A stretch of 64,000 nucleotides of DNA from Sipunculus nudus (taxonomy: Eukaryota; Annelida; Sipuncula; Golfingiida; Sipunculidae). Shown piece by piece: positions 4,374 to 62,670 of this stretch. The notes beneath the pieces were generated by a model that was not told the origin of the DNA, did no database searches, and worked only from the letters and a program-made list of their open reading frames with translations. Every line of letters begins with the position of its first letter. The first letter of the stretch is position 1. The translations under genes and the position numbers were made by a program. The stretch is taken from assembly GCA_026874595.1 (NCBI GenBank), contig CM049322.1:50569340-50633339 (forward strand), in the 5' to 3' direction.

Positions 4374-4680
4374 TGTAGAGTAGATACCTGTCTTTGGCAT
4401 GGCTGATGTACCCTAATATATATAACACGGTATTTCAGTGTAGAGTAGTGGCCTCCCTTTTACATAATGAACGTACCCTCATATGGACGAGTATTTTAAT
4501 GTTGAGACGTTGCCTGCCTTTCACATAGTGGATGTTCTCTCATGGAACAGGGTATTCCAATGCAGAGTCGTTGCCTGCCTTTCTCATAGTGGACTTACTC
4601 TCATGGAACAGGGTATTTCACTGTAGAGTCTTTGCCTGCCTTTAACACAGTGGACGTACTCTCATGAAACAGGGTATTTC
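4374..4680. repeat. 60-bp minisatellite derived from lectin exon end (array 1)
   Basis: About five units of 60-61 bp are marked by recurring GTATTTCA(A/G)TG anchors near 4435, 4495, 4555, 4615 and 4675. Read on the minus strand, each unit resembles the last 60 bp of the neighbouring lectin exon, i.e. the codons for PC(Y/F)xRVRPLC. The unit next to the exon (4621-4680) is the exon end itself. Stops and indels occur in the extra units, so they are not extra protein repeats. Confidence 0.75.
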
Positions 4681-4835
4681 CTTCCACCTGTTAAAATCAG
4701 ACATAAGTAGCTGCACACAATGGGGGACGATGTTAATTAAAAAACGTTTCCTTCCCAGGTACTCCCACTTCGTGAATCCAAACTCTTTACCGGTTGCCGT
4801 CCATATCCCGCCTTTGCCTGAGGTCCATACCCCGT
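4642..4835 (-). pseudogene. CTLD C-terminal-half exon, lectin copy 1
   Basis: The minus-strand frame reads GVWTSGKGGIWTATGKEFGF, then TKWEY..., then HCVQLLMSDFNRWKEIPCF and RVRPLC. This is the second half of a C-type lectin-like domain: the WTSG and WTATGK...F.W strands, then the last three CTLD cysteines in HC, PC and PLC. The acceptor TTATCAAG lies just upstream at 4836-4843, and the phase (one base carried over) agrees with the N-half exon of this copy. After PLC the frame meets TAA at 4642-4644 where copy 2 continues EKQAS. It is part of copy 1, which also has a nonsense codon and a frameshift in its other exons, so it is a pseudogene. Confidence 0.75.
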
Positions 4836-5611
4836 CTTGATAAAGACGCCCTTTAACACAAATGCAATGCGATTAGAAAGAAAGTTGCCTAACTTAATGC
4901 GGTTTAGGATGCAGTACTAATTGATTAACCTGTTTAATTAAGTATTCGTCTTGTATACACCAATGGGGTACAAACAAAACCTATGGTGATTTAGGATGCA
5001 GTACTAATTGATATACATAATTTCAATTGGTCTTGAAAATATCTTTTACTTATAATTATGTTTTCCAATTTGTTTTTATTATCAAGACACTCAGGATCAT
5101 TCACTGACATCATTGCCGCCATTGTTCTGGTGAAACGACAAACAATTTCTCTGGTCTGAACAGCATTATTAACTGACATCAATCTATAATTAATTAATTG
5201 TACCATATCATTTATCTGCACCAGAAACAAGGTATTGTTTCCCCCATGAAGTGTTGATCGATTATACAATGTGTAAGTTCATCCAGCGTTTTAAATGTGC
5301 TCTGGTAGAATTTTATGGGGATTATATTAACATAAACGGAAAATTTCTGGATCTGGATCAACAAAGTAGTCTTTTCAACTGAAAGGATTTTTTCCCACTT
5401 TGTGATAGGGCAATATGAATATCCTGGCCTAGTTTCAGGGCCTTTTACTCAAATCGTGGACGCCATTGATTCAAGTGAAACGTTAGATAAAATGTCCCCG
5501 TGGAATACGATTTTTTTTTCATAAAGAACTTGGCAGACGTAGAATGAGACTAATTTCCTGTTAATTATATAAGTTAATTTTTCGTCAATTCAATTATCAT
5601 ATTAACCATAC

Positions 5612-5824
5612 CGTTTTCCGTAGTGCTTTTAAGAACCTTAGCCATATGGCTTTGTTCTTCCTTTGATTCAATGCTGACCAGATTTCCACAGAGAGCTCTG
5701 CATTTTTTTTGCGCCGACGACCAGTCTAATTTCTTTATTAGGAGTTTTTAACAGGAGGCTTGGAAGGACCCATCTTCTGTCGGGGCTTCTTTTAACAAAA
5801 TATAACGAAATCCCGCTTGGCAGG
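5612..5824 (-). pseudogene. CTLD N-terminal-half exon, lectin copy 1 (nonsense)
   Basis: Reads CQAGFRYILLKEAPTEDGSF then QASC-stop-KLLIKKLDW, then QKKCRALCGNLVSIESKEEQ and SHMAKVLKS. These are the conserved first half of a CTLD: C-x-x-GF, the second cysteine of the long form, the W.xA...C alpha-helix region and (L)VSIES(E)EEQ. Acceptor CTTTCAG and donor G|GTATGG are in place, both phase 1. A TAA at 5748-5750 follows the second cysteine, where copy 2 has a tyrosine codon, so a single substitution may have caused it. On the minus strand the exon lies between the cysteine-module exon (upstream) and the C-half exon (downstream). Confidence 0.75.
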
Positions 5825-6247: not shown

Positions 6248-6380
6248 CATAGCGCCGTTTGGGGCAGCTCTGGGATGCTAGAAGGGCATGTAGCTGTCTC
6301 AATTTGGATGCACTTCCCATCACAACGCACGATGGACTGCTCCTCGCACAGCTTGATACACTGCGGAAATGGTCTTAAGG
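6248..6380 (-). pseudogene. Four-cysteine module exon, lectin copy 1 (frameshift)
   Basis: Reads LRPFPQCIKLCEEQSIVRCD then GKCI; after a one-base shift it reads KLRQLHALLASQSCPKRRYG and ends at donor G|GTAAAT. Spacing is C-x11-C-x3-C and, across the shift, about x15-C-P-x2-R-Y-G, matching the module exons at 12.6, 55.4 and 60.4 kb. The module is not one I recognise. It lies one exon upstream of the CTLD in all four full copies, so it is presumably an N-terminal secreted or stalk module of the lectin. The frameshift makes this copy non-functional. Confidence 0.6.
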
Positions 6381-6389
6381 TATGATTCG

Positions 6390-9300
6390 CCTCGTTCTCT
6401 GAATAAATGAAATTTTATTTAAATTATTGATTCGGTTAATATAGCTGATGTATGTTTTCATACATAAACAATGGTTTAACATGGATATGCGTGTTATGTC
6501 TAGTAACCCCGGACCTCACTAAATAAGTATGAGTTTTGCCGAGATTCAGATCAATAGATGTAAAGTATTGGTTATATTTTTTTTATTAGTTTCATGAAAA
6601 TCGATCAGACTTTTGGTGAGTTTGGTGACCTCTGAACCCATAATATATGCATAGTTTTGCTTTGGATCAATCTTATTTGAGATATTATATTGGTTAATTT
6701 TCTCTTGAGATTAAAAAAAAATAAAACCTTTCCCTACTAATAAATAACAATGAAAATGCAGAGCAGCCTCATTACCTCTGAACTTATAAAATATACACGG
6801 ATATTGCATATAATATATTCCGGGTATGCGGTTATACCATAATTAGCCCGTCATAGACGGGCGTATAAAAAATGTTGAATCTTTGTTCGAGTATTCACTT
6901 AATCTAGCGAAAATGATTCCGCTGAAATGAATACCAGTTAATACTGTTCATTGCAAAACAATATCAATGATCCAAAACTTATATTTCACTGATTACATTT
7001 GTATTGTTTAATTTTGTACGCATGTTAAATTTACCACATTTCCGTGGATATAAAATTATTTTGATTTTTAAGTTAACATATTTTTGATCATACGCGTTTT
7101 AAGCAGCGTATTTTATTTCTAATTCCAGTAAATTAGAAATTTTTAATGTTTCATACTGCAAATGTGTGTAGTTTTTTAGTAAGGCTAGACCTTGCAAAAA
7201 AAAATAGTAGGTAGAAGACCCAATCGAGAATCATGATCAATTCCAACTTCAGCTGGAAGCAGAGGGAAGAATCCTGTTCGGGCTCCTACAGCAACCAAAT
7301 GGGCGACTGTACATGCGCCATTGTAAAGACTTGGCATCCATATATTTATCACTGGTTAACTGAAAATAATACGAAATTTCTGCAAAGCTGCTGCCAATAT
7401 TGTCATGTTGAAGTGTTTCGTAAAAGAAAACTATCATGTATCTTTACCACACAGATATATCGTCACTTCTGGCGTGTAGTTATTCGATCATCCAACGCTT
7501 TGAAATATCTCATTCCACTTATACTGGAAATGACAACTGATGTTATTAGCCTCTTCGTGTCACCTTAACAAGAAAGTTTTCAAAGAAACAAAAATAACAA
7601 GTGCTGATGTTAGGATAATGTTAAAGTGGAATGTCAATAAATAAACCTTATTACATCTCATTTAGTCAATTAAAAGGCTGTAGGTGGGAAAGCGCCTGTC
7701 AATCATTTTGAATTAACAAGAGCCCTCTCTTTCTTCCATTTGTGACAGGTGCGGGTCAGTTAGAATTTAGATGCGGCAGGTACCAGTATATCATATTTAG
7801 CTTTTTGGTTGTGGCGACAGATTGCACATGTGCGTTGAGAAGAGCTGGATGACCGCAAATGACAGCTTTAAATGGGGATTTGAAGGCTTTTAACCGATTT
7901 TTAGATAAGTAGAGTGCTTTATGATAAGGATTTGATGCGGCAGTAAAGTCGTAATATGTTCTTCTTCTAGTTTCCATTTGAAAGGCAGTGATCTGTTTAA
8001 GCAGGAATATGTTCCATGTATACAGCAAGAGATGACGTAAGTAGGATAGTGAATGTCAGAGGAAATACAGATGTGGAATACTACAGAATTATTATGATAA
8101 ATTTTGGGATTATAAGGATATATAGGGAAGGTACTTAAGGACAGAGTCTTGAAGGACGGCGCATTTAGGGATTATAAGGATATTCAAGGATATTGACTAG
8201 CAGATTCATAGCTGGGCCAGGTTTTCTTGAAAAATGTTTCCACAGTTAGCTATTTACTTGGTACCATATCGAAAAATGTTAAATTCTTTTATGATATTCT
8301 TTTCTTTCACTGGTGACATGTATTGAAACTATTACTTTTGTTTAACGTGCACATATTATCTGTACTGTTAACACATTCAGGTTGTCAGAGTTAGATTTAT
8401 AAATTGTGCTAGCTGTATATTGGAGCCAGGGTTGCATGTTATCTTGCTGTTGTTTGACTCTGCATCTGCATCAGACTTTAGAACAGGTATGTTGTATCAG
8501 AGATAGATACTATATGTCTACCATTCGGGCTAAGCATGCTGGTATATGGAAGAGATACAATTTCTTGATTGTATATTGCCTTTGCATGAGCAGAAGATAA
8601 TTCACATATATTCGCTATAAGATTTTATGTTTTTTATTTGTTGGGATTATGTTTAAATATGTTCTTTCGTGATTCGCTTCATCAGAATTTGGCTATTTTG
8701 TAAGAGATTATTCTTCAATATATGGTCAAGATTGTGAGCTTGACTAATTGCCGTCGTCTATGTAATTACTAACGGAAATCCCCACAGGCTCAGAAACATT
8801 GAAGAGGAGCTGGAAGCTCATACACCGTGAAAAATCAAATGGGCGGGAAACACCTACTGAAGCCATGCTCCCATTCTGGCAGCTCCCCGTGATAAAGACT
8901 GGTTTAAACACACCTGAAATTACCCAGTTTCAACTGAGATGCGTCAAAGCTTGAGATATTGATCCCGGGGGCAGGAGTGGTAGTTTTGATTCAGTGACTG
9001 AAGGGATGCGATGCATATTATAATATATCATAATAATATAATAACATGTTTAGAAGGGATAGAAAAGTATAATGTAATATTTGTCAAAGTTCGTTACCTA
9101 CATGAGTTGTTTCAGCTGCTTGAGATGTGCCCGGGAGATCCCAGGTGTGTCCTTCAACCATAAGCGAGGAAGACTTCAAGGAAGAAGAAACGAAGACAAC
9201 GCATACGCAACGGGAGACTTTTCCAAAGGACAGAATGATTCAGGAAACATAGTGGAAAAGGTCTGTACACTAAGGGAAAATGCAGCGATGTCCCATGACA

Positions 9301-10383: not shown

Positions 10384-10915
10384 ATATAGTTGATGTGTCT
10401 CCCCATAAAGGATATACCCTTATGTGGCAAGCTATTTCAATGTACAGCAGATGCCTCTCTTTCATGCAGGGGGGATGCCGTTACGTAACAAACATTTCAA
10501 TGAAGATTTGAATCATGTTGCTCACAGTGTGGAGGTACCCAATGTAGCATGGTATTTCAATGTAGAGTAGATGCATCCCTTTCACGTAAAGTACCTACAC
10601 TATGTAACATGGTATTTCAATGTATAGTACTTGCCTGCCTTTCATATAAGGAAGTACCCTAATGTAACAAGTTATTACATGTAGAGTAGATGCATCCCGT
10701 TCACATAAAGTACCTACCCTAATGTAGCAGGGCATTTCAATGTAGACCAGGTGTCTGTATTTTACGCATTGCTTTTTTAAATATCACAAATATTTCAATA
10801 AATAATTGAAGCCTGTCTTTCACAGAGTGAAGTACCTTGATATAATATGGTACTTCAATTTAGGGTAGATGCCTGCTTTTCACATAAAGGACGTACCCTA
10901 ATGTAACAGGGTGTT
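10384..10915. repeat. 60-bp minisatellite derived from lectin exon end (array 2)
   Basis: About nine units of roughly 60 bp have (A/G)TATTTCAATG-type anchors near 10433, 10492, 10553, 10613, 10672, 10733, 10790, 10850 and 10912. The last unit (about 10857-10915) is the 3' end of the intact lectin exon. The others are diverged copies of that 60-bp segment running downstream of the gene on the minus strand. For example the unit ending at 10613 reads on the minus strand TGAAATACCATGTTACATAG against TGAAACACCCTGTTACATTA in the exon. Confidence 0.8.
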
Positions 10916-11072
10916 TCATTCCACATTTTACCATCTCTTATCAGCAGCTGTACGCAATGAGGGACGGCCGTAGGTAAAGAAAGTTCCTTGCCCATGGGCT
11001 TCCAGCTCGTGAAACCAAACACTTTACCAGTTGCCGTCCATTTTCCACCCTGCCCTGAGGTCCAGAACCGTT
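10855..11072 (-). CDS. CTLD C-terminal-half exon, lectin copy 2 (intact, last exon)
   Basis: Reads RFWTSGQGGKWTATGKVFGF, TSWKPMGKELSL..., PHCVQLLIRDGKMWNETPCY, RVRPLCEKQASTLN and stop. This is a textbook second half of a C-type lectin-like domain: FWTSG, KW.ATG..F.FT.W, then the three conserved cysteines HC, PC and LCEK. The Ca-dependent sugar-binding signatures EPN/QPD and WND are not seen; the WND position reads WNE, so classical sugar binding is uncertain. The acceptor TTTCCAG|AA fits the phase-1 donor of the exon at 11693. The stop is TGA at 10855-10857. Together with the next two entries it gives an uninterrupted frame, so this copy is the likely functional gene of the array. On the minus strand a minisatellite grown from this exon follows it. 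Confidence 0.8.
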
Positions 11073-11692: not shown

Positions 11693-11905
11693 CTACTTTC
11701 CCAGGCCTTTTCAGCACCTTAGCCAAATGATTCTGTTCCTCTCTTGATTCAATGCTCATAAGATTGCCACCAAGAGCTTCGCAACGTTTTTGTGCCAACC
11801 ACCAGTGTGTTTTATGTGGTAGAGGTATGTAACAGGAGGCTTTGAATGAACCGTTCTCTGTCGGAGTGCCATTGGGAAATAGATCATGGAATCCCGCTGG
11901 ACAGC
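11693..11905 (-). CDS. CTLD N-terminal-half exon, lectin copy 2 (intact)
   Basis: Reads CPAGFHDLFPNGTPTENGSF, KASCYIPLPHKTHWWLAQKR, CEALGGNLMSIESREEQNHL and AKVLKRPGKV. Motifs in order are C-PAGF (long-form CTLD first cysteine), SCY, WWLAQKRCEALGGNL (helix 1 with the core cysteine) and SIES.EEQNHL (helix 2). Acceptor ACTTCAG|GC and donor GTAG|GTATGG are both phase 1 and match the neighbouring exons. No stop or frameshift is present. It is spliced between the cysteine-module exon at 12596 and the C-half exon at 10855. Secretion is likely for this domain type, but no signal-peptide exon was identified upstream. Confidence 0.8.
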
Positions 11906-12595: not shown

Positions 12596-12735
12596 CATAT
12601 CGGTTTTGGGGACACTTCTTGAATTCTAGCTGGATATGGAGATGCCTTGCAAGTGGGATACACTTGTCGTCACAACCTAGCCTGGACTTCCCATCACACA
12701 CCTCCATACATGGTTTAGGAAGTCTTAAGGCCGGT
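12596..12735 (-). CDS. Four-cysteine module exon, lectin copy 2 (intact)
   Basis: Reads LRLPKPCMEVCDGKSRLGCD, DKCIPLARHLHIQLEFKKCP and QNRYG, ending at a consensus donor ATATG|GTAAGT. The G plus the GC of the next exon makes the in-frame junction RYG-CPAGF of the CTLD. Cysteine spacing is C-x11-C-x3-C-x15-C-P-x2-R-Y-G, identical to copies 3 and 4. Two of the four full copies (1 and 2) add a fifth cysteine inside the first loop (C-x3-C). I do not recognise the module; it is not an EGF, PAN, CUB or TIL pattern. The upstream exon edge is uncertain: candidate AGs lie near 12725-12745, next to a (TA)n tract. Confidence 0.65.
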
Positions 12736-12757
12736 ACCGTCTCATTCTTTACGAGTG

Positions 12758-12759
<2 letters not shown>

Positions 12760-12819
<60 letters not shown>
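12760..12819. repeat. (TA)n microsatellite
   Basis: About 30 uninterrupted TA units just upstream (minus strand) of the module exon of lectin copy 2. The open frames seen here on both strands encode only YIYIY runs and are artefacts. Confidence 0.97.
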
Positions 12820-12823
<4 letters not shown>

Positions 12824-13127
12824 ATAACTTTCTAAACAAAAATATATGCTAAATATTTGAAATGTGAAAAAAAATATTTATTAAAGGCGATATATTAAGA
12901 AAATATTTTACGTAAGACTTTACGGAGATTCTGAATGATCAATTTTAAAACGTTTAATATTGTTTCTATACTTATTCTACGATAAACTTATCGACTATAA
13001 AATTATGGAAATATATTGATATGGTGTATTCTTTTAGTCTACATTTGGAACAGCGCATTGGAATCCCCAATGAAAAATTTCTAGTTGTGCAGCTTGAAAT
13101 AGGTTCGTAAAGCACGACCTGGTGATA

Positions 13128-13900
13128 TAATAATTAGATAGAAGATCCAATCAAGATTCATGACCCGTTCTATCTGAGGTTTCTTAAAGGGAAGAACTTG
13201 TATATTCAGCCTCTCCTATAACACCTGAATTGACAGTTGTTCAGGCGACATTGTCAAGTGCAACATTGAAAAGAGATTGGTAATTCTACAAATGCTACTG
13301 TCAGAATTGTCACGTTAAAATGTTTCGCCCTTAAACGTCTGAAAAGATTTCTTTGTCGTTGACAAAGTAATCATTTTTGAATATTACTTGATCGTCAGTT
13401 GCTAAGCTGCTGTCATTAGTATCATTTTAGCCCTTGTACAAGAAATGTCTCATGAGTAATAAGTTGCCAAGTGCTGATATATGAATAATGTCTAAGCTGG
13501 ATTGAAACAAATTAAGCATTTTACGTCCCATAAAGTAAATTTAAAGCCTCCAGATGACAAGACGCCTACCAGATCACTGTCAATTCTTCAAATGCTACCG
13601 TCAATATTGTCGCCCTAAAAGGTATCAAGAGGTATATTTGTAATAGACAACATCAATCATTTCCGCTTATTGTTAGATCAACAACAAAATTTGAAAAAAA
13701 ACCTGCTTACTTCAGTTGCTAAATTATTGTTATCAGCGTCACTATGGGCCTTTCACAAGAAACGTTCAAAATTAACAAGATGTCAAGTGTAAATATTTGG
13801 ATAATGGCTGAGTGGGAACGAAATAAATTATGTTTGTCATATCTCATTAAATCAATTAATCAATCATGTGCAACGATGCCTATCAATTTGTTGACAATTT
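13128..13900. repeat. Duplicated flank of lectin copy 2, with internal repeat
   Basis: About 13128-13520 is the counterpart of 7196-7680. A third partial copy follows at about 13560-13870, sharing ATGCTACTGTCAGAATTGTC-like and AACAAGATGTCAAGTG(C/T) segments. No gene is supported here. Confidence 0.5.
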
Positions 13901-28115: not shown

Positions 28116-29105
28116 CTACGGGCTGAACATTGCCGCACAGCAAAATATAGGAAAAGTTTCATAACAACTAGTATTAGACAGTTCATGTGTAGAATCAGCC
28201 CTGATACACTGTGCCTTTCGTGTGACACAGCAGCAGTACAGTTCATTCAGCAGCTTTACATTCTTGAGACCCAACTTTATCCCTGCACGAACAATTCGTA
28301 GCAGTTTGTTTTTGGATGCTGTATTGGAATTTCCGAACCAGCTTGTATTGCAGAATGTTAGCACTTACTGAATCACAGAAATATAAAACAATTCCATTAT
28401 TTTCGTATCTCATTCGGTAGAGTTTTCTCAGGAAAAGAAAATATCATATTTGCTTTTTTTATAAATGTTTTGCACATTAGCTTCAAAATTAAATTTGTCG
28501 TCTATTATCGTACCCATATATTTGTATTCTGTTACATTTTCCACGGTTTGGCCATTTATGGTAAGAGGTTAATGTTTTTTGTTACCTAACCTTTAATCGA
28601 TAATCATTTCTTTTGTGTTCCTAACACTGAGTTCTAAGAAGTTATTGTCGCACCACTCCACAAATCTTTGTACCTCTAGCCTTTAATCTAAGTCTGAATT
28701 ATTACAGAGGCTAATCAGTGCCGTGTCATTGGCGTATTTTAAAAAATTTACAACTCTCAGAGATTACCCTGCAGTCACTGGTATGTAAAGTGAATAATAT
28801 GGGTGAGAGAATGCATCCCTGTAGAGCACCTGAATTTGTTTGAATTTCCTCAGATTTGACATTCTTTAATATATCAAACTGGCACATGTATGTTAGAAAG
28901 CTATATATCCAACTTATAATAGATGCGCTGACATTCATGTTAAGAAGTTTGTTAAGAAGCAAGTGTGGTAGGATTGTATTAAATGCGCTAAAGAAATCTA
29001 TAAAAAAGGATTTTTGCAAAAATGTTATTTCCATTGCTACTAGGCGAATCAAGGAATTTATAATGTCGTGTGTGATCAGAATGGTACACACATGTATGAT
29101 ATGTG
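28116..29105 (-). pseudogene. LINE reverse transcriptase fragment (ORF2 C-terminal part)
   Basis: The minus strand reads FIDFFSAFNTILPHLLLNKL (RT motif A, F-x-D-x-x-x-A-F), WIYSFLTYMCQFDILKNVKS, GALQGCILSPILFTL (motif B, QG....SP.LF) and KYANDTALISLCNNSD (motif C, a YADD box with N replacing the first D). It continues FVEWCDNNFLELSVRNTKEM, VTEYKYMGTIIDDKFNFEAN, and a C-terminal SWFGNSNTASKNKLLRIVRA with GIKLGLKNVKLLNELY...RKA. This is the order of the RT and C-terminal region of a jockey-superfamily LINE. Several stops, shifts and the mutated catalytic box mark a dead copy. Its reading direction is opposite to the surrounding receptor pieces. Confidence 0.8.
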
Positions 29106-29107
29106 AA

Positions 29108-29110
<3 letters not shown>

Positions 29111-29162
<52 letters not shown>
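29111..29162. repeat. (TA)n microsatellite
   Basis: About 26 TA units at the 5' edge of the LINE fragment. Confidence 0.97.
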
Positions 29163-29164
<2 letters not shown>

Positions 29165-29368
29165 AGGTCCATTTGTAAAAAAATTATTCAACAGAGCATT
29201 TCGAGACCACAGCTGGAATACATTACCTGACAAACACAAAAACAGTTTCATCACAAACAGGTAAAGTTGTAGCCCTGTTTTTGTCTTAAGTGTTTCAAGC
29301 CACGTTTCCTAAGTTACAGATTAACTTAGTTATGGTAAAAATCATAGCGGAAAAGGATTTTTTTATAG

Positions 29369-41712: not shown

Positions 41713-42169
41713 AGTGATTTTTTTCTGTATTAAAATGTATCAGACTTAACCAGCCATTAATACCTGCGATATCAGTTGCATGTGACCAAAAGCATCTTGT
41801 AGTTTTTTTTTAATTATTGCTACCATTTCACTATGCTAATATCTGTCACATATACAGGCCTACTGTGAACCCTTTTCTCTGTGCCAGTAACCCTAATTTC
41901 ACAATACTGGCCGTGCTATTTTTAAGAGTGGCTCATAATATTCATAATATTGCAATTTGCTGTCAACATGGTCATTCAAGATGTGTTGAATTCTCATATA
42001 GTTGGAAAATGTGTTTTTAATCATTTAGATAATATTTGAGGTTTGTTAAGTAGTTGCCATGAAAGAGGTAAAAAGTCAATTTTCATTTCCTTCTGTGGGA
42101 TTTAACATTTACTTTGTGCAGCGATTGATGTATATATTATGTTCATGTAGGACCTATTATATTTTGAAA

Positions 42170-44869
42170 ATGTTCAAATGGGAAAGATGCAGTTTTCCTT
42201 CTGAATACTTGAAAAGTTGTGTGGAACACTATCAAATCCATTCAAATGTGCCCAATGCTAGATTTCCATGTGTCGTTGCTGACTGCAAGAATTCATATAA
42301 AAATTACGATTCACTTAGATCCCATATTATAAGGCAACACTCTGGGGTAAAGAAAATTAAGGAGCAAAATCATACTGAATTTGAGCTCTGCTGTTATGTA
42401 GCAGACTGCAGCCATAGATGCACAGGCCTATCACAACTTTGTACTCATTTCAGATCTCACATTAGGAAGGGAGATAAAATGTCATGCCCTTTTCTTAATT
42501 GTGGCAGTAGGCCATTTCATAATCCCAGTACTTTTGCATCTCATATAAGCCGAGTACATAAAGACTGGTCAAGATGTATCTTTGTTGGTATCGGATGTTT
42601 TGATTGAAGGAGCCTCATACACCAGTTCTCAAATCCAAGGTGAAAATCTACCACAAAATGATTATGAAGATGAGGGTGATTTTTTTATAGTGTCATGGCA
42701 GAATCAGTTTCCCAGCCCACATTTGAAAATGATCTTTTGCAAAAAATAGCATTATTCCTCCTTACTTTGCAAACCAAAGGCCATGTTCCAGTGTCAGTTA
42801 TACAAACCATTATAGAAGAATTAAGTTGTCTGCATGATTTCAATGCAGCTTTTGTATCAAAGCAAATCAAAACCAAATTAGAAAGTTTTGAGGACGATGG
42901 GTTTAAGCTTCCCACTGACTTCATTGACAGCATTCAGAAACTTGTTCATAATGATCCTATTCACAGAATGCTGGATGCCGAACAAGGTCCATTAAGATCC
43001 AGCCAGACTAGAAAAACATATTTAAAAAAAGAGTTATCCTTTGTACCGCCTGTTAGATATAAAATTGATAACGAGGAAGAGCGTTATTTTCATTATGTTC
43101 CTTTACTTGAGTCCTTGCAGGCAATCTTCTCGGACTCTGGGATAGATCAGTACCTTGATAATGAGTTGCATTCTTCTAGTGAAATATTGCAGGACTTCCA
43201 GGATGGAACAGTTTTCCGAAATAAGAAGTTTTTTTTTCAGGAAAATCCTGGTGCAATACAAATTTTGCTGTATCAAGACTCGTTTGAAATAGTCAATCCT
43301 TTAGGTTCTGCAAAGAAAAAACACAACTTCTTGTGGTATACTACTCCATAGGCAATTTGCATTCAAGTGTTCGTAGTGTTATTGATACTATGCAAGTGGT
43401 ATTATTGTGCTAGGAAGTAGATGTCAAGTGGTTAGGTGATAAAGGTCAGTCAACTGTGTTTGGGCCTTTTGTTGAGAGATTTAATGAAGTTGAAAAGTGA
43501 AGGTGTTTTCTTGAGTGAGAAATTTGAGAAGAGGAAAGATTCTGTTGCCTTTGTCTTGGGAGATAACTTAGGCAGTCATATGCTTGGTGGTTTTGTTGAA
43601 AATTTCAGTACTGTCAGTCAGTTTTGCAGGTATTGTCTAATTCCAAAAGCTGACCTTGATGCAGGAATAACTTCCCCTAATGATTATGACCCCAGAACTG
43701 TAGAGAACAATGATAAATGTCTTGAGCAGGTAACAGAGAGAGGTGCGTCCCACTGGAAAGGTGTCAAATACAATTCACTTTTTAACCAGCTTGGTAGTTT
43801 TCATGTAACAGACCAAGGGTTACCTTTGTCTTGGCCATGATTTGTTTGAGGGTGTCGTTAAGGTGGATTTGAACCTAATTTTGAATAGTTTGCAATCAAA
43901 TGGTTACTTCACATTTGATGACCTGAACACTAGAATTTCTAGGTTTAAGTTCAAAGGTTCAGAAGCCCTGGACAAGCCTCCAAAAGTGAGCTCCAAAGGA
44001 ATTTCTGGCCATGCAGTGCAAGTGTGGTGCTTTCTTAGGACCCCTCCGTTGCTAATTGGAGATAAAATGACTGATGTGAATGATCCAGTTTGGAGGTTAC
44101 TGATTCTGCTCAGATCTGTTGTAGAACATGTCTGCAGGCCATCCTATAACATGGCTATATAGTGGAGATGAATGAAGCCATTGAAGAATATTTAATTCTT
44201 CGGACCGAGGTCTTTGCTAATGTAAACCTCAAACCAAAACATCACTATCTTGCACACTCTCCCCATCTCACAATAGAATGTGGACCTCTGATAAGATTGT
44301 GGACATTAAGATTCGAAAATAAACATTCCTATTTCAAGGAATGTATCAGGTCATCCCAGAACTTTATCAATGTGACACAGTCATTATCAGAAAAACACCA
44401 GTTGTTACAGACTCTGTATTCAGCAGGATCTCTCTTCAGGCATCCGGTGTCATATAGTGATGGGACTCCAATAAATCTTGAGATACTGTCTGACAAAATC
44501 AAAGAGGCAATTTTGAATCTTCCTCAGTCTTTGAATACAGCAAATACTGTAGTCTGCTCAAGGGTTACATGTAATGGGAAAACCTACAAGAATGATTCAG
44601 TCCTTTTACTGAGCAAAGTAGCTGAGATGGATAAGGATTACCACTGTGGAGTAGTTAAGATGGTTTTATTGCATGGGGATCAGAAAATTGTTTTCATTGT
44701 TGTAAAAAGGTACTTGAGATACATGTCAGACACTGGGGTGTACAGAATTGAGAATGTTGACCCTCCTGGGAGTGAATTTTGTTGTGTTTTCTTCCAAAAT
44801 ATGCTGGATGTGTATCCTCTTGAAGCATATCTAGGTGAAACATTTGTGGTGATGAAACATGCTGTGTAG
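42170..44869 (+). pseudogene. C2H2 zinc-finger + DDE transposase, CACTA/EnSpm-like
   Basis: 42170-42570 encodes three clear C2H2 fingers: CVVADCKNSYKNYDSLRSHI..H, CYVADC...THFRSH and CPFLNC...SHISRVH. Then comes an acidic linker (NDYEDEGDFF). The catalytic region reads LYQDSFEIVNPLGSAKKKH (about 43268-43322), FVLGDNLGSHMLGGFVENF with CRYC (about 43550-43640), GHDLFEGVVK (about 43835) and KPKHHYLAHSPHLTIECGPL then IRLWTLRFENKHSYFK (44230-44340). The order D-x-F..NPLG, (G)D...G....C..C and H..H...GP...W..FE parallels the plant Tnp2 (CACTA) DDE core; taking D, D and E as the triad is inference. At least six lesions (shifts near 42570, 42685, 43330, 43475, 43830 and 44160, plus a TAG near 43413) kill it. 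After the stop a donor AAG|GTAGGT links towards the next gene. Confidence 0.75.
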
Positions 44870-54172: not shown

Positions 54173-54371
54173 TTATAGGAAAGAAGCCTTTTTTTCACAC
54201 ATGGGGAACATCCAAACTAAACAGGGTGTTCTATACCAGGACCAGGCATTCATTTCAACACATCTGGCTTGTGTGGTGAGCCGCTTAACATGATCTTGAA
54301 ACCTGGTAAAAGTGAACGCTTTGCCCGTTGCAGTCCACTTGCCATCTCTGCCTGATGTCCAGAAATGTCTC
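54173..54371 (-). pseudogene. CTLD C-terminal-half exon, lectin copy 3
   Basis: Reads RHFWTSGRDGKWTATGKAFT, FTRFQDHVKRLTTQ, ARCVEMNAWSWYRTPCLVWM, FPMCEKKASFL and stop. All second-half CTLD landmarks are kept: FWTSG, KWTATG..F.FT, RC, TPC and MCEK. The acceptor is GGCTAG|G (phase 2), different from copies 1 and 2. This exon is intact, but the N-half exon of the same copy has a frameshift. A sugar-binding WND motif is not visible. Confidence 0.7.
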
Positions 54372-54484
54372 CTAGCCATTGATGTTTCTTATTGAAAATG
54401 AAATAGGTATTATTAAGGATACGTGAGTTGAGTGTTTTGAGAATATCATTTCCTCACAATGTTAATGATAAAAACAATTCTGTA

Positions 54485-54487
<3 letters not shown>

Positions 54488-54541
<54 letters not shown>
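54488..54541. repeat. (TA)n microsatellite
   Basis: About 27 TA units in the intron between the CTLD-half exons of copy 3. Confidence 0.97.
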
Positions 54542-54543
<2 letters not shown>

Positions 54544-54664
54544 TCCCTGATGCCAGAAAGCTGCGTTATTAAACTAAATTTTAAATTTAATTAAAAAAGT
54601 GACTTATTTATAAAGTGGCTGATACATTTATTATCGAAGTTCACGGAGTTTCTACAGATTATAC

Positions 54665-54919
54665 CTTACTGAATTTATTATTCTCTTTTTTTAAAAGGTA
54701 TTTGCCTTTCAGTTCTAAGTTTCCCAGCATCTTCGACAGGTGGTTTTGTTCTTCTTCTGTTTCAATGCTCACAAGATCCGCTTCCATGTTCTTGCACATC
54801 TTGTTTGCCAACCACCAAAATACCTTCGGTATTTACCAGCTTATAACAGGAGGGAATGGCTGAACCATCGTTCATTGGCGCATCGACAAGCAACATGTCG
54901 GTAAATCCATCTGGACAAA
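54665..54919 (-). pseudogene. CTLD N-terminal-half exon, lectin copy 3 (frameshift)
   Basis: Reads VCPDGFTDMLLVDAPMNDGS, AIPSCYKLVNTE, then after a shift of one base FWWLANKMCKNMEADLVSIE, TEEEQNHLSKMLGNLELKGK. Motifs are CPDGF, SCY, WWLANKMC and VSIETEEEQNHL. The acceptor AATATTCAG|TT joins in phase with the module exon (G|TT = Val, giving HYV-CPDGF). The shift near 54829 is the only visible lesion apart from an uncertain donor in an A-rich end. Confidence 0.7.
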
Positions 54920-55360: not shown

Positions 55361-55510
55361 CATAGTGCCTTTGATGACACTGCTTGAGAGATAGCAGACT
55401 ATGGATCTGAGGGCCAGCCTCGATACATTTTTCATTGCAATTAGGTGTAGATTCCAAATGGTAGAGTTTATCGCATCCAGGTCTTGCTGTCATCTGACTT
55501 TTTAGGATAA
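55361..55510 (-). CDS. Four-cysteine module exon, lectin copy 3
   Basis: Reads TARPGCDKLYHLESTPNCNE, KCIEAGPQIHSLLSLKQCHQ and RHYG, ending G|GTCAAT. Spacing C-x11-C-x3-C-x15-C-(H)-Q-x-H-Y-G is as in copies 2 and 4. The exon is open, though the gene copy has a frameshift in the next exon. The exact upstream edge is uncertain (ATGACAG or CTAAAAAG). Confidence 0.55.
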
Positions 55511-55569
55511 ACATGTCTTTAAAAAAAGAAATATGAAAGAAGATGTATTTGTACATTCGTATTCTCCCT

Positions 55570-56586
55570 GTGCTTAAACATTCATGACATATCGTAAACT
55601 ACAACTATAATTATGTAATGATACATGCTTAATTTTGTTCGATGAAATGTTTCTTATCAGTAAGCCTTGTGTAAATGATTGATTACTGAATGTAACATGT
55701 CTTATTATTTGCAAGAACATCCATAAAATCGATCCGTATTGAACATATGGAAAACATGAATACTTAAATCCATGTTTAGTCATCGAAGAAAACTCACTAT
55801 TTTAAAGACTTTTTTTCAAAGAATTTCGGATTATATTTATTCAGATACCTTGATTTATGAGGAGAGAAAATATTTGAAAAATCCAATGCAGTTGCATTAC
55901 TTTGTCTGTCTCCCGACTGGCTAAAGAAGTGATTACAGGTGTATTTGTTCTCTGGAACGACCGGCGGACTGAACATTAATGAGACAGCTAAATATAGTCA
56001 GAGTCCATTATCACCAAAATTAATATGTCACACATTTTGATATATAACAAGATATTAAATGTTTATAACTTTAATAACGCAAATTGCTTCCAAGTCCCTT
56101 GCCAAGGTTAAGCCTTGAGTCTGACAGGTTTTAATAACCTCCTATCCTCTACATTTGCTTCAATCCCTGACACAAGTGGCAATTCTGTTTGGTATTATTG
56201 TTGAACACATCACCTTTATTTGTTTCTAGGGACAGGACTATCACGTGTATATCGTCAATAGCTGACAACTTCAAAGCGAAACATAAAGATAGCACCGTGC
56301 TTGAATATTTCTTCTAATTACATTTATCAGAGACTCTGATATATATAATTCACATGAAAACGAAGCAACATAAAGATAGAAAAATAATAATTTAAAACAA
56401 ATCCATAAAATGTTTTTTTATTTTTTTTTTATTTTAACTAAAGAATATAATATTCGGCTATAGTGGGACATGAGGACGGTTTGCAATACACGCGCACCGT
56501 AGCATTAATACCATAATAATTCATTTATACAAAAAGAATTTTTAATTTACCCATTGTACAAGATTAACATTTGATATTATATAAAG

Positions 56587-59201: not shown

Positions 59202-59410
59202 TTACATGGTGTAGGCCTTTACTTCACATATCGGGTAGTTCTTCAAGTAACAGAGGATGTTATGCCATATGTTAGGGTACCTGGTCACAATTTTAACACA
59301 TCTGGAAGCTGGAATTCTCATAGTAAATGATTCTTCATATATATGTGAAACTGAACGCTTGGCCAGTCGCTGTCCACTTGCCATCCCTCCCTGATGTCCA
59401 AAAGTCTCTT
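59202..59410 (-). pseudogene. CTLD C-terminal-half exon, lectin copy 4 (frameshift)
   Basis: Reads RDFWTSGRDGKWTATGQAFS FTYI, then in a shifted frame EESFTMRIPASRCVKIVTRY, PNIWHNILCYLKNYPICEVK and AYTM. FWTSG, KWTATG, RC, LC and ICE are the CTLD second-half landmarks. The shift near 59340 (in a TA-like ATATATATG) breaks the frame. Acceptor CTGTAAG|A is phase 2, as in copy 3. Confidence 0.7.
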
Positions 59411-59645
59411 CTTACAGCTGATACCTTTTCTGAAAGACGAATTATTTAAAAACAACCGGAACGCCGTCGACAGTGTAACGAAAACAGCATTTCTTCTTGT
59501 GTAAATTTAGGTATCTGCAATAATCTCGTGCAAAACGGATAGAATCGGCCATTTATTAAAGTAAGACATGTTTGGGCACATGATTCGCTTTTAAAGTCAT
59601 CTGTATTAAACAAGGTTCTTTTTTAACATGCATTCTTTACTTTAC

Positions 59646-59857
59646 CTCTTTTTTTTCTGACCATTTCAGCATTTCAATCACATGAATATTCTCTTCTTCT
59701 GTCTAAATGATGACAAGATTTGCACCCAGACCCTTGCACATTTTGTTTGCAGACCACTATACTGCTGCGGCTTTTCCAAACTGATAACAGGAGGGAGAAG
59801 ATGAATCACCGTCTTTAGATGCACCGATCAACATGCTGCCAAAACCACCTCCACAAA
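59646..59857 (-). pseudogene. CTLD N-terminal-half exon, lectin copy 4 (two stops)
   Basis: Reads VCGGGFGSMLIGASKDGDSS, SPSCYQFGKAAAV, stop, WSANKMCKGLGANLVII, stop, TEEENIHVIEMLKWS. C-x-x-GF, SCY, W.ANKMC and the TEEE helix are recognisable. Two stop codons, in place of W/Y and E/S codons of copy 3, show decay by substitution. Acceptor TCCTCAG|TT is phase 1. Confidence 0.7.
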
Positions 59858-60383: not shown

Positions 60384-60509
60384 CATAGCGGGTTTGTGGA
60401 CACTCCATCGGGGAAAGCAGACGGTGGAGCTGACGGGCTCCGTCGACACACTTTTCATCACAAATGGCTGCGGACTCCAAGCGAGACAATATATTACATT
60501 CCGCACTTT
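60384..60509 (-). CDS. Four-cysteine module exon, lectin copy 4
   Basis: Acceptor CTGCAG and donor G|GTCAGT flank ESAECNILSRLESAAICDEK, CVDGARQLHRLLSPMECPQT and RYG. Spacing C-x11-C-x3-C-x15-C-P-x2-R-Y-G. It is the cleanest example of the module because both splice sites are visible, although the CTLD exons downstream in this copy are dead. Confidence 0.6.
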
Positions 60510-60539: not shown

Positions 60540-62670
60540 CGTGACCTGGCCATTATTCCTTGTACATTTTTGTACATTTTTCTATCGTTTGCTATGTCAA
60601 TTTATACCCCTTCAACTGCATATATGGTTCACTTCATTGAAAGAAATATTCTCAAATATATTTTTTTTATTTGATTAAAAAAAAGATGCCTCTTTGTGTA
60701 ATTAAGAAAACTGAATGTTACAGACATCTTTTAGTTTATTGGTCATAATAATCTAGAATATGTAGACTAGGATAAATTATGGTCAAATTATTTTTTTTAA
60801 TCATGTTTAACCTGTCAAGTTATTTTTTTTGTTTTTTTTGTTTTAAGCGTATACTCATGTGAATTATCCTAAACTAAATACCTTTGTATGTGATTGCAAT
60901 AAAGGCTGGTAAAATCCAGAAGAGATGCATGACTTAGTGGGTCTGATGGATTTCAAAAGAATTAACAAGTGGTGTAGCTGTTATCTGAAAGATTCATTTT
61001 AAGCCCAAATGATATAATTAATCAAAGCCTCAGATCATCATTATGTATCTGGTATTAATGTGCCAAGTATATTGTTTCAGAGCAGGCGGTCAATTGATTA
61101 TTTTTGTCATAATACATCCCTTTGTGTATGACATAGGTGCTTTTATTGAACCATTAAACGACATATTGATTTAAATGGGAGATGTAAGTGGTGTTTAGAA
61201 TTCTGGCATTTATTTTCTCTGGTGAAAGATAATTGCAGATGCTTTTAGGGACTCTTTGTGGGCTATATTGCTATTCACCCAGGTATCTACTTAAGGCTTA
61301 CCTAACTGTTAAATGTTTGAATTCTTTACAGAGGATCCCCTCCATCTTTCAGACAATAGACAATAATGGAACTATAAAGAATGAAAATTTACGTATATTT
61401 TCCATGCGTTTCATTTCAATTTGTAAGAAATTTAATGGGAAATTAATATTTAAACTACAAAAAAAATCCAGAAACCTCTCATTTTACCAATATTGTTGTA
61501 ACATTTTTAAAAGCTATCCTACACAAAATGTCATCGTCAAATTTTAATGTGTCTCCCTTAACATTCATTTTATACATTGCACTGGATATTTGTTTCTCTG
61601 CAACTAGTCTGAGAAAGTATGACTCGTCCGAAATTGAAATATTTTTCCAGGGTTTTTTTTCACGTTTTCAAAGTTGATATAATTTTGTTTGCGTGTTTTT
61701 GTTTTTTCTTTGTGTGGGAGTTAATAATCTTATTATCTAAATGTCTTGATATACTGACGTTCACACGTTTGTAAATATTTCATTTATTTAATTTAGGGTA
61801 CGGCTTTCATAGTAAAAACATTCGCCATTGTTAACAGGCAATATCCGTTCTATCTAATTGTTACCACGGCATCTGCAGTCGCTGGAAAAAAATAAAATAA
61901 CTAGATGATAAGCCAGTGTTCATGGAATATTATAGCCGATCAAACATCCTTTAACAGTGTTGGAGTTATTTTATAAGGCTGATTACAAGAATTGTGCATA
62001 TAAAGCCCTGTTCTGCTGAAAAAAAAATGTAATAACGTGGCCTTTTCAGTGCATAACCTATACGACAATACTATCCTCCTTTCAAAAACTGTTCCAAACA
62101 CACTTAGGCACTTAATTTCTTAAATTTTTCCATGTGGGGGGAATCTTATCATGAATTTAGTTTTTTTTTTCACAGGTATGTAAGCATTTAACACCAACAA
62201 TACAACATTAAACATGACCAATATGATACATCACGGTATGGTGTGCCCTATTCGACCGTGGTTTGACTGCTTTCTCTAAATAAAACATAACAATTAATAG
62301 CAATCTGATGTTATGATATATCCTTTACGTCATGCCACGTGGTAAATAAAACAAATGCATAGGATATTGCAGTTTTCATGAAAGAGGCACCCGATGAGTC
62401 CCAAAACACCAAATACATTTTACTGAACAATTTTGGTGATAGACGATATACTAATTCGAACTCTCTAACGGAGTGTTATAGCCAGAGTACAGAGAAAAAT
62501 AATATCTCACGGCCAGAAGCATGAGCAAAGGAGGCACAGCCTCCATCTTGCAAACAAAACAGTTACACATAGATGTACTTGTCTTGAAATGTCAAAGGAA
62601 AAGCCACCTTATATCAATAACACCCTTTAACATCCGTGACTACACAACAAAAGATGCCGCAAGAAATAAG
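60540..62670. other. Non-coding 5' flank of lectin copy 4
   Basis: AT-rich. A 104-codon plus frame at 61233-61547 shows no family motif. Confidence 0.4.

Follow-up and report, generated by a model that had tools for sequence, protein, structure and literature searches.

A five-cysteine exon heading a predicted secreted C-type lectin-like protein of Sipunculus nudus, probably remodelled from a PAN/apple-like exon

We analysed a stretch of 64,000 nucleotides of the Sipunculus nudus genome (GCA_026874595.1, contig CM049322.1, here C17:50569340-50633339, the window), in which a minus-strand exon at positions 12596 to 12757 encodes a module of five cysteines ahead of a C-type lectin-like domain (CTLD). 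Our analysis suggests that this module is probably a shrunken and remodelled PAN/apple-like exon that heads a secreted CTLD protein and acts as its N-terminal disulfide dimeriser. Most likely it modifies a known design in a new way rather than being a brand-new domain, and an apparent orphan module would become a traceable case of domain remodelling.

Intact genes carrying the five-cysteine module

The module belongs to a four-exon minus-strand gene (gene 2), with all introns in phase 1, and the predicted spliced product has 211 amino acids and 11 cysteines. Exon 1 (13119 to 13161), an addition to the preliminary description of this DNA, starts with the ATG at 13161, encodes the hydrophobic predicted signal peptide MNLDWIFYLIIISP and ends in phase 1 at the donor CAG/GTCGTG. 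Exon 2 (12596 to 12757, phase 1-1, donor ATATG/GTAAGT) encodes the module, C-x3-C-x7-C-x3-C-x15-C-PQNRYG. Exon 3 (11693 to 11905, phase 1-1, acceptor TTCAG, donor GTATGG) encodes the N-terminal half of the CTLD, and exon 4 (10855 to 11072, acceptor TTCCAG) its C-terminal half and the stop codon. The Pfam family Lectin_C (PF00059) was found at residues 101-205 of the spliced protein with 37.7 bits against a cut-off of 22.6, and with 23 bits in exon 3 taken alone. In a phmmer search of PDB chains the protein matched CLEC4D (E 4.4e-9) and codakine (2.8e-7), and in the matches listed the best stretch starts at residue 71 or later, i.e. inside the CTLD.

The acceptor of the module exon (AAAG) looks weak and borders a (TA)n microsatellite. 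This tract (window 12760 to 12820) abuts the acceptor and occupies the usual place of the pyrimidine tract, and its length could influence splicing. Also, just downstream of gene 2 there is a 60-bp tandem repeat of 3.5 copies (10536 to 10746), one stretch of which translates to EMPCYIRVGTLCERDASTLH and resembles the CTLD end, as though amplification had affected the final part of exon 4.

Four homologous module exons are present on the minus strand of the window (approximately 6248 to 6398, 12596 to 12757, 55361 to 55516 and 60384 to 60509; genes 1 to 4), each followed by a CTLD exon pair on the same strand. The preliminary description had grouped these exons by a common cysteine module, and their likeness is indeed beyond chance, as indicated by tblastn within the window (copies 3 against 4, E 1.8e-9; copies 2 against 4, E 1.4e-7) and by the genome-wide matches of the module at C14:49.69M, which found two other modules at E 6e-7 and 8e-6; however, only copy 2 lies in an intact gene. 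Whole-genome searches, covering 1.43 Gb with three modules as queries, returned window copies 2, 3 and 4 together with C17:49.73M, C14:35.002M, C14:35.057M and C14:49.69M. At these last four loci both CTLD halves lie downstream on the same strand and are stop-free in the matched stretches, and the recurrence of the module beside a CTLD is thus borne out by four further intact genes elsewhere in the genome.

The pattern C-x3-C-x7-C-x3-C-x15-C is kept in all five intact module genes. A conserved four-cysteine spacing had been proposed before; the spacing is conserved, but the pattern has five cysteines, one of them overlooked. Counted on the translations, each of the five genes has five module and six CTLD cysteines, 11 in total, and the modules are approximately 28-51% identical outside one young pair. 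This pair, C14:35.002M and C14:35.057M, is held by a recent duplication in opposite orientation (approximately C14:34996600-35011300 and 35048300-35062500) made of three blocks 93-95% identical, the largest with 10.6 kb and 94.8% identity. In its coding exons the nonsynonymous (dN) and synonymous (dS) divergences are 0.045 and 0.049 (21 and 6 changes), with 3.0, 3.1 and 5.1% divergence in the introns; no clear constraint is seen over this short time, yet every cysteine was kept. Short hydrophobic exons resembling exon 1 of gene 2 stand 383-572 nt ahead of the module in window genes 3 and 4 and in the three C14 genes, while a signal peptide sought ahead of the module was not found for C17:49.73M and none was in phase for gene 1.

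Other occurrences are less regular. C14:49.674M has a decayed module ahead of a CTLD, and L035 (C9:63.32M) is a short-loop variant, C-x3-C-x4-C-x3-C-x15-C-RRESYG, followed by a CTLD half that is without one cysteine (SFYK). An extra fragment of the first CTLD half (CTLD1) with three stops lies upstream of the C14:49.69M gene, at C14:49691446-49691625. A weak module match at C2:60.05M was taken as chance, with no CTLD match in the surrounding 10 kb. The exon-end pattern CP..RYG plus donor was found at 17 places, which include genes 2 and 4; the reversed control gave 19, and we name none of the other 15 as a module gene.

The module itself escapes recognition by common domain families, as the preliminary description had stated. 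Pfam gave no match for three of three copies in a first scan and, on seven copies, just Furin-like at 0.0098 in two; NCBIfam gave just a bacterial model (0.0096, two of the seven), and both were taken as cysteine chance. The module profile had no PDB match in one run and a single chance match at 0.71 in another. Insulin, LNR, somatomedin B and TIL domains were dropped on cysteine spacing.

Sister exons and the origin of the module

What points to an origin are the exons that occupy the same place in other CTLD genes. With the first CTLD half of C14:49.69M as query, 150 listed of 1265 candidates were grouped into 30 loci (L029-L058), seven of which are module genes (the five intact ones, C14:49.674M and window gene 1). 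A cysteine exon was sought in the 1.5 kb ahead of CTLD1 in the remaining 23 loci. A long exon with C-x3-C-x7-C-x9-C-x~16-C, or near it, was present in four (L034, L037, L038, L039), the short-loop module in one (L035) and a PAN-like exon with C-x3-C-x(4,5)-C-x10-C in 11 (L041-L043, L047-L049, L051, L054-L057; L041 partly seen), 8 of these 11 ending in YG as the module does; none was seen in this interval in the other seven (L040, L045, L046, L050, L052, L053, L058). This points to a group of genes within one animal genome in which a PAN-like exon is coupled to a CTLD.

The long exon of L037 has at least 150 matching places genome-wide (best non-self E 1.5e-7, last listed near 1), including L034, L038 and L039. 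Twenty of the better places in this search, together with L034, L037 and L038, constituted a set of 23 long exons with the consensus ELKRVH..G....EC...C.RQ..P.C.......VCIL. Of the 61 best-scoring among the 150 listed places, eight are followed within 10 kb by a listed CTLD, the query's own gene and L034 included, and none is preceded by one, against a mean of 0.1 after shifts. When 2.5 kb downstream of four further long-exon places was read, a CTLD half was present in one. For PAN_1 the linkage test is uninformative: of 112 places, 2 are followed by a listed CTLD within 10 kb and 2 are preceded by one.

The long exon resembles a PAN/apple domain, a family of PF00024 (PAN_1) with PAN_3 and PAN_4 that includes SML-2, the HGF N domain and the plasminogen N-terminus. 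In PAN domains the hairpin cysteines stand approximately 10 residues apart, after the C-x3-C. The fold predicted for the long exon is strand-helix-strand-strand, with its C-x3-C in the helix and two more cysteines at the hairpin; in structural alignments of this prediction SML-2 ranked first, and Pfam found PAN_1 in 3 of the 23 long exons. Profiles of the long exon and the PAN-like set aligned at E 0.49 with three sequences and at E 0.0034 only with 23, and 5 of 200 shuffles with the cysteine columns fixed reached the real score.

The module, in turn, stands in the same exon slot as the long exon, with the same phases. Comparing eight modules with the 23 long exons by hhalign gave E 4.4e-5 (probability 69%), a second profile comparison gave 7.3e-5 (62%), and the real score was reached in 1 of 200 shuffles with fixed cysteine columns. 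A hidden Markov model built from seven exons (four PAN-like, three long) matched the module of C14:49.69M at 9.6e-4, that of gene 1 at 0.16 and that of C17:49.73M at 0.86, and left the gene 2 and L035 modules unmatched up to E 5. In a CTLD1 tree (22 rows, 65 columns) the module genes require four changes and are intermixed with the long-exon genes; a single module-gene clade is not rejected (p 0.197), and the split from the PAN-like genes is supported by 51/81 only. The preliminary description considered a new domain family and had set PAN aside. An unrelated new domain is not supported, given that the long exon in the same slot has a PAN-like predicted fold and the module aligns with it, and PAN is the best answer for the origin of the module even though the room for the PAN hairpin is gone.

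Several observations weigh against a PAN descent. PAN-clan Pfam models matched none of the three and none of the seven module copies scanned, nor the L035 variant, and a direct hhalign comparison of module and PAN-like exons gave no match (E 0.36). With only three residues between the third and fourth cysteines, the module has no space for a PAN hairpin: its C-x3-C-x7-C-x3-C falls short of the spacing of about 10 for the hairpin pair, to which the x9 of the sister exon comes close. In addition, AlphaFold2 on seven module sequences returned two helices (predicted local distance difference test, pLDDT, 58; predicted template modelling score 0.32), a model too weak to use and, at this low confidence, unlike the strand-helix-strand-strand of PAN.

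Alternatively, exon shuffling could have put a separate small domain, and hence a true new domain family, in the place of the PAN-like exon. The missing profile match, the passage of the third gap from 9-10 residues to 3 with no intermediates seen, the all-helical low-confidence model, the ease with which phase 1-1 exons are swapped and the single module-gene clade that the tree does not reject are all in its favour. Nevertheless, we consider a replacement unlikely: the C-x3-C-x7-C spacing and the flavour of the long exon persist in the first half of the module (KCNELCTRLSTPRCD against ECTKLCSLTKPPQCD), the profile likeness at E 4e-5 to 7e-5 is equalled by 1 of 200 shuffles, and on the best CTLD tree module and long-exon genes are mixed.

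The module could also be a relic, a PAN exon that decays under weak constraint and is tolerated as the CTLD does the work alone. In favour of this, four of nine standard-form module loci are broken (window genes 1, 3 and 4, and C14:49.674M), and dN is close to dS for the two young C14:35 genes. However, we regard this as improbable, since the five intact genes keep all five cysteines at exact spacings in otherwise divergent modules, the splice phases are kept, and the damage in genes 1, 3 and 4 extends to the CTLD. Finally, a derivation of the long exon, and hence of the module, from a Kazal-type inhibitor fold is very improbable: the top PDB match of the long-exon profile was a Kazal-like elastase inhibitor (E 0.037) of similar C-x3-C-x7-C spacing, with a second Kazal inhibitor next at 0.26, but Pfam found no Kazal family in the 23 long exons, and the predicted strand-helix-strand-strand fold, whose helix carries two cysteines and whose top structural neighbour is SML-2, differs from Kazal domains, where the hairpin comes first and the helix after. 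No Kazal domain appeared by name among the best 50 matches each from VIA-align and Foldseek, which excludes nothing.

Broken window genes and neighbouring elements

The other three window genes, all on the minus strand, are broken. In gene 1 the module (6248 to 6398, acceptor TTCAG) is frameshifted, as previously described, with tblastn pieces at 6396-6280 and 6299-6246 in different frames; its first four cysteines keep the standard spacings ahead of the frameshift. Its CTLD exons (4663 to 5822) comprise 5822-5628, with one stop, and 4827-4663, followed by a stop that replaces the last Glu. Gene 3 has a hydrophobic signal-peptide exon MQLHWIFQIFSLLINQ (55849 to 55897, coordinates derived from the offset to the module), a module (55361 to 55516) with the second cysteine changed to Tyr and a poor donor, GGTCAATG, and CTLD exons (54194 to 54917) at 54917-54725, with a frameshift, and 54364-54194. 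In gene 4 a short hydrophobic signal-peptide exon MHLFWILPAFIAITYK (60882 to 60930) precedes a module (60384 to 60509) with the second cysteine changed to Ser, and the CTLD exons (59223 to 59855) lie at 59855-59664, with two stops, and 59403-59223, with a broken frame. The module had been described as joined in frame to the CTLD; this is the case for copy 2, in phase 1 on both sides, but the CTLD of copy 3 is frameshifted and those of copies 1 and 4 carry stops.

The window also contains, on the minus strand at 28726-29187, an open frame that by eye resembles a piece of reverse transcriptase (GALQGCILSPILFTLHTSD) and, on the plus strand at 42050-44869, a run of long open frames, the first with zinc-finger-like Cys/His, perhaps a transposon-related gene (by eye). 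Elsewhere in the genome, L083 (C13:31267900-31271300) and 57 listed PF00059 places are intron-free open frames of 329-441 amino acids with C-type lectin matches. Nearly equal copies are spread over contigs C1 to C17, at several sites in tandem approximately 1.4 kb apart, and each of the two full frames read in L083 seems, by eye, to combine two CTLD-like parts with a hydrophobic C-terminus. They look like a multicopy, perhaps mobile, unit.

Proposed function and comparison with known systems

Taking remodelling of a PAN/apple-like exon as the origin, gene 2 would encode a small secreted C-type-lectin-like protein whose second exon supplies the N-terminal module, descended from an exon that holds the same place in many CTLD genes of this genome. 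In the branch with the window genes the central beta-hairpin C3-x9-C4 would have shrunk to C-x3-C, and the remaining C-x3-C ... C-x3-C core could form a small helical hairpin pinned by cystines, with the fifth cysteine just ahead of the CTLD. The first four module cysteines would pair internally and the six of the CTLD in the usual way, and the leftover fifth may join two chains. The odd total of 11 cysteines in each intact gene is what suggests a dimer, and this conserved odd cysteine predicts disulfide-linked pairs, which could present their CTLDs in twos to a microbe- or mucus-borne ligand.

The cysteine pattern fits an alpha-hairpinin-type twin CX3C, a hairpin of two antiparallel helices with C1-C4 and C2-C3 disulfides, and the module model (pLDDT 58) is helical at low confidence. 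A natural fold switch within one gene family, from a beta-rich PAN/apple domain minus its hairpin to an all-helical twin-CX3C cystine hairpin, is a doubtful extension of this proposal. If true, both forms would stand side by side in the same exon slot of one genome, with traceable steps, and a real helical form would offer a rare series in which a fold change can be followed gene by gene.

The second part of gene 2 behaves as a PF00059 CTLD, above the Pfam cut-off and with six cysteines. The EPN/QPD and WND motifs are not required for the CTLD fold. In the translation, read by eye, EPN/QPD is absent and WNE replaces the canonical WND; the usual calcium/sugar site has therefore probably been lost.

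In the literature on PAN/apple domains and mollusc or bivalve C-type lectins, as far as these sources were accessible, we found no description of a module or PAN domain joined to a CTLD, and other papers or supplements may hold one. The terms "apple" and "PAN domain" are absent from the accessible text of a bivalve C-type lectin review (PMC12842671); the excerpts of a bivalve C-type lectin gene-family study lack "apple" and have "pan" just in pan-genome and Panel; and in excerpts retrieved for apple domains with bivalve C-type lectins the sole mention is a PAN module in an abbreviation list. Two systems come closest to the proposed dimer. Anopheles CTL4 and CTLMA2 are, according to the available part of the report, secreted single-CTLD proteins in which an N-terminal cysteine motif forms an intermolecular disulfide (PMC6811590); their motif is a short CXCXC, whereas gene 2 has a five-cysteine module, and their heterodimer is experimental, while we infer a dimer of the module protein. 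The bivalve SPL-1 and SPL-2 form CTLD dimers held by interchain disulfides, some via the first cysteines of the chain, and unlike in gene 2 no N-terminal module is mentioned for them in the sections available of the review (PMC12842671). As far as these portions tell, secreted CTLD proteins can form interchain bonds through their N-terminal cysteines (PMC6811590, PMC12842671).
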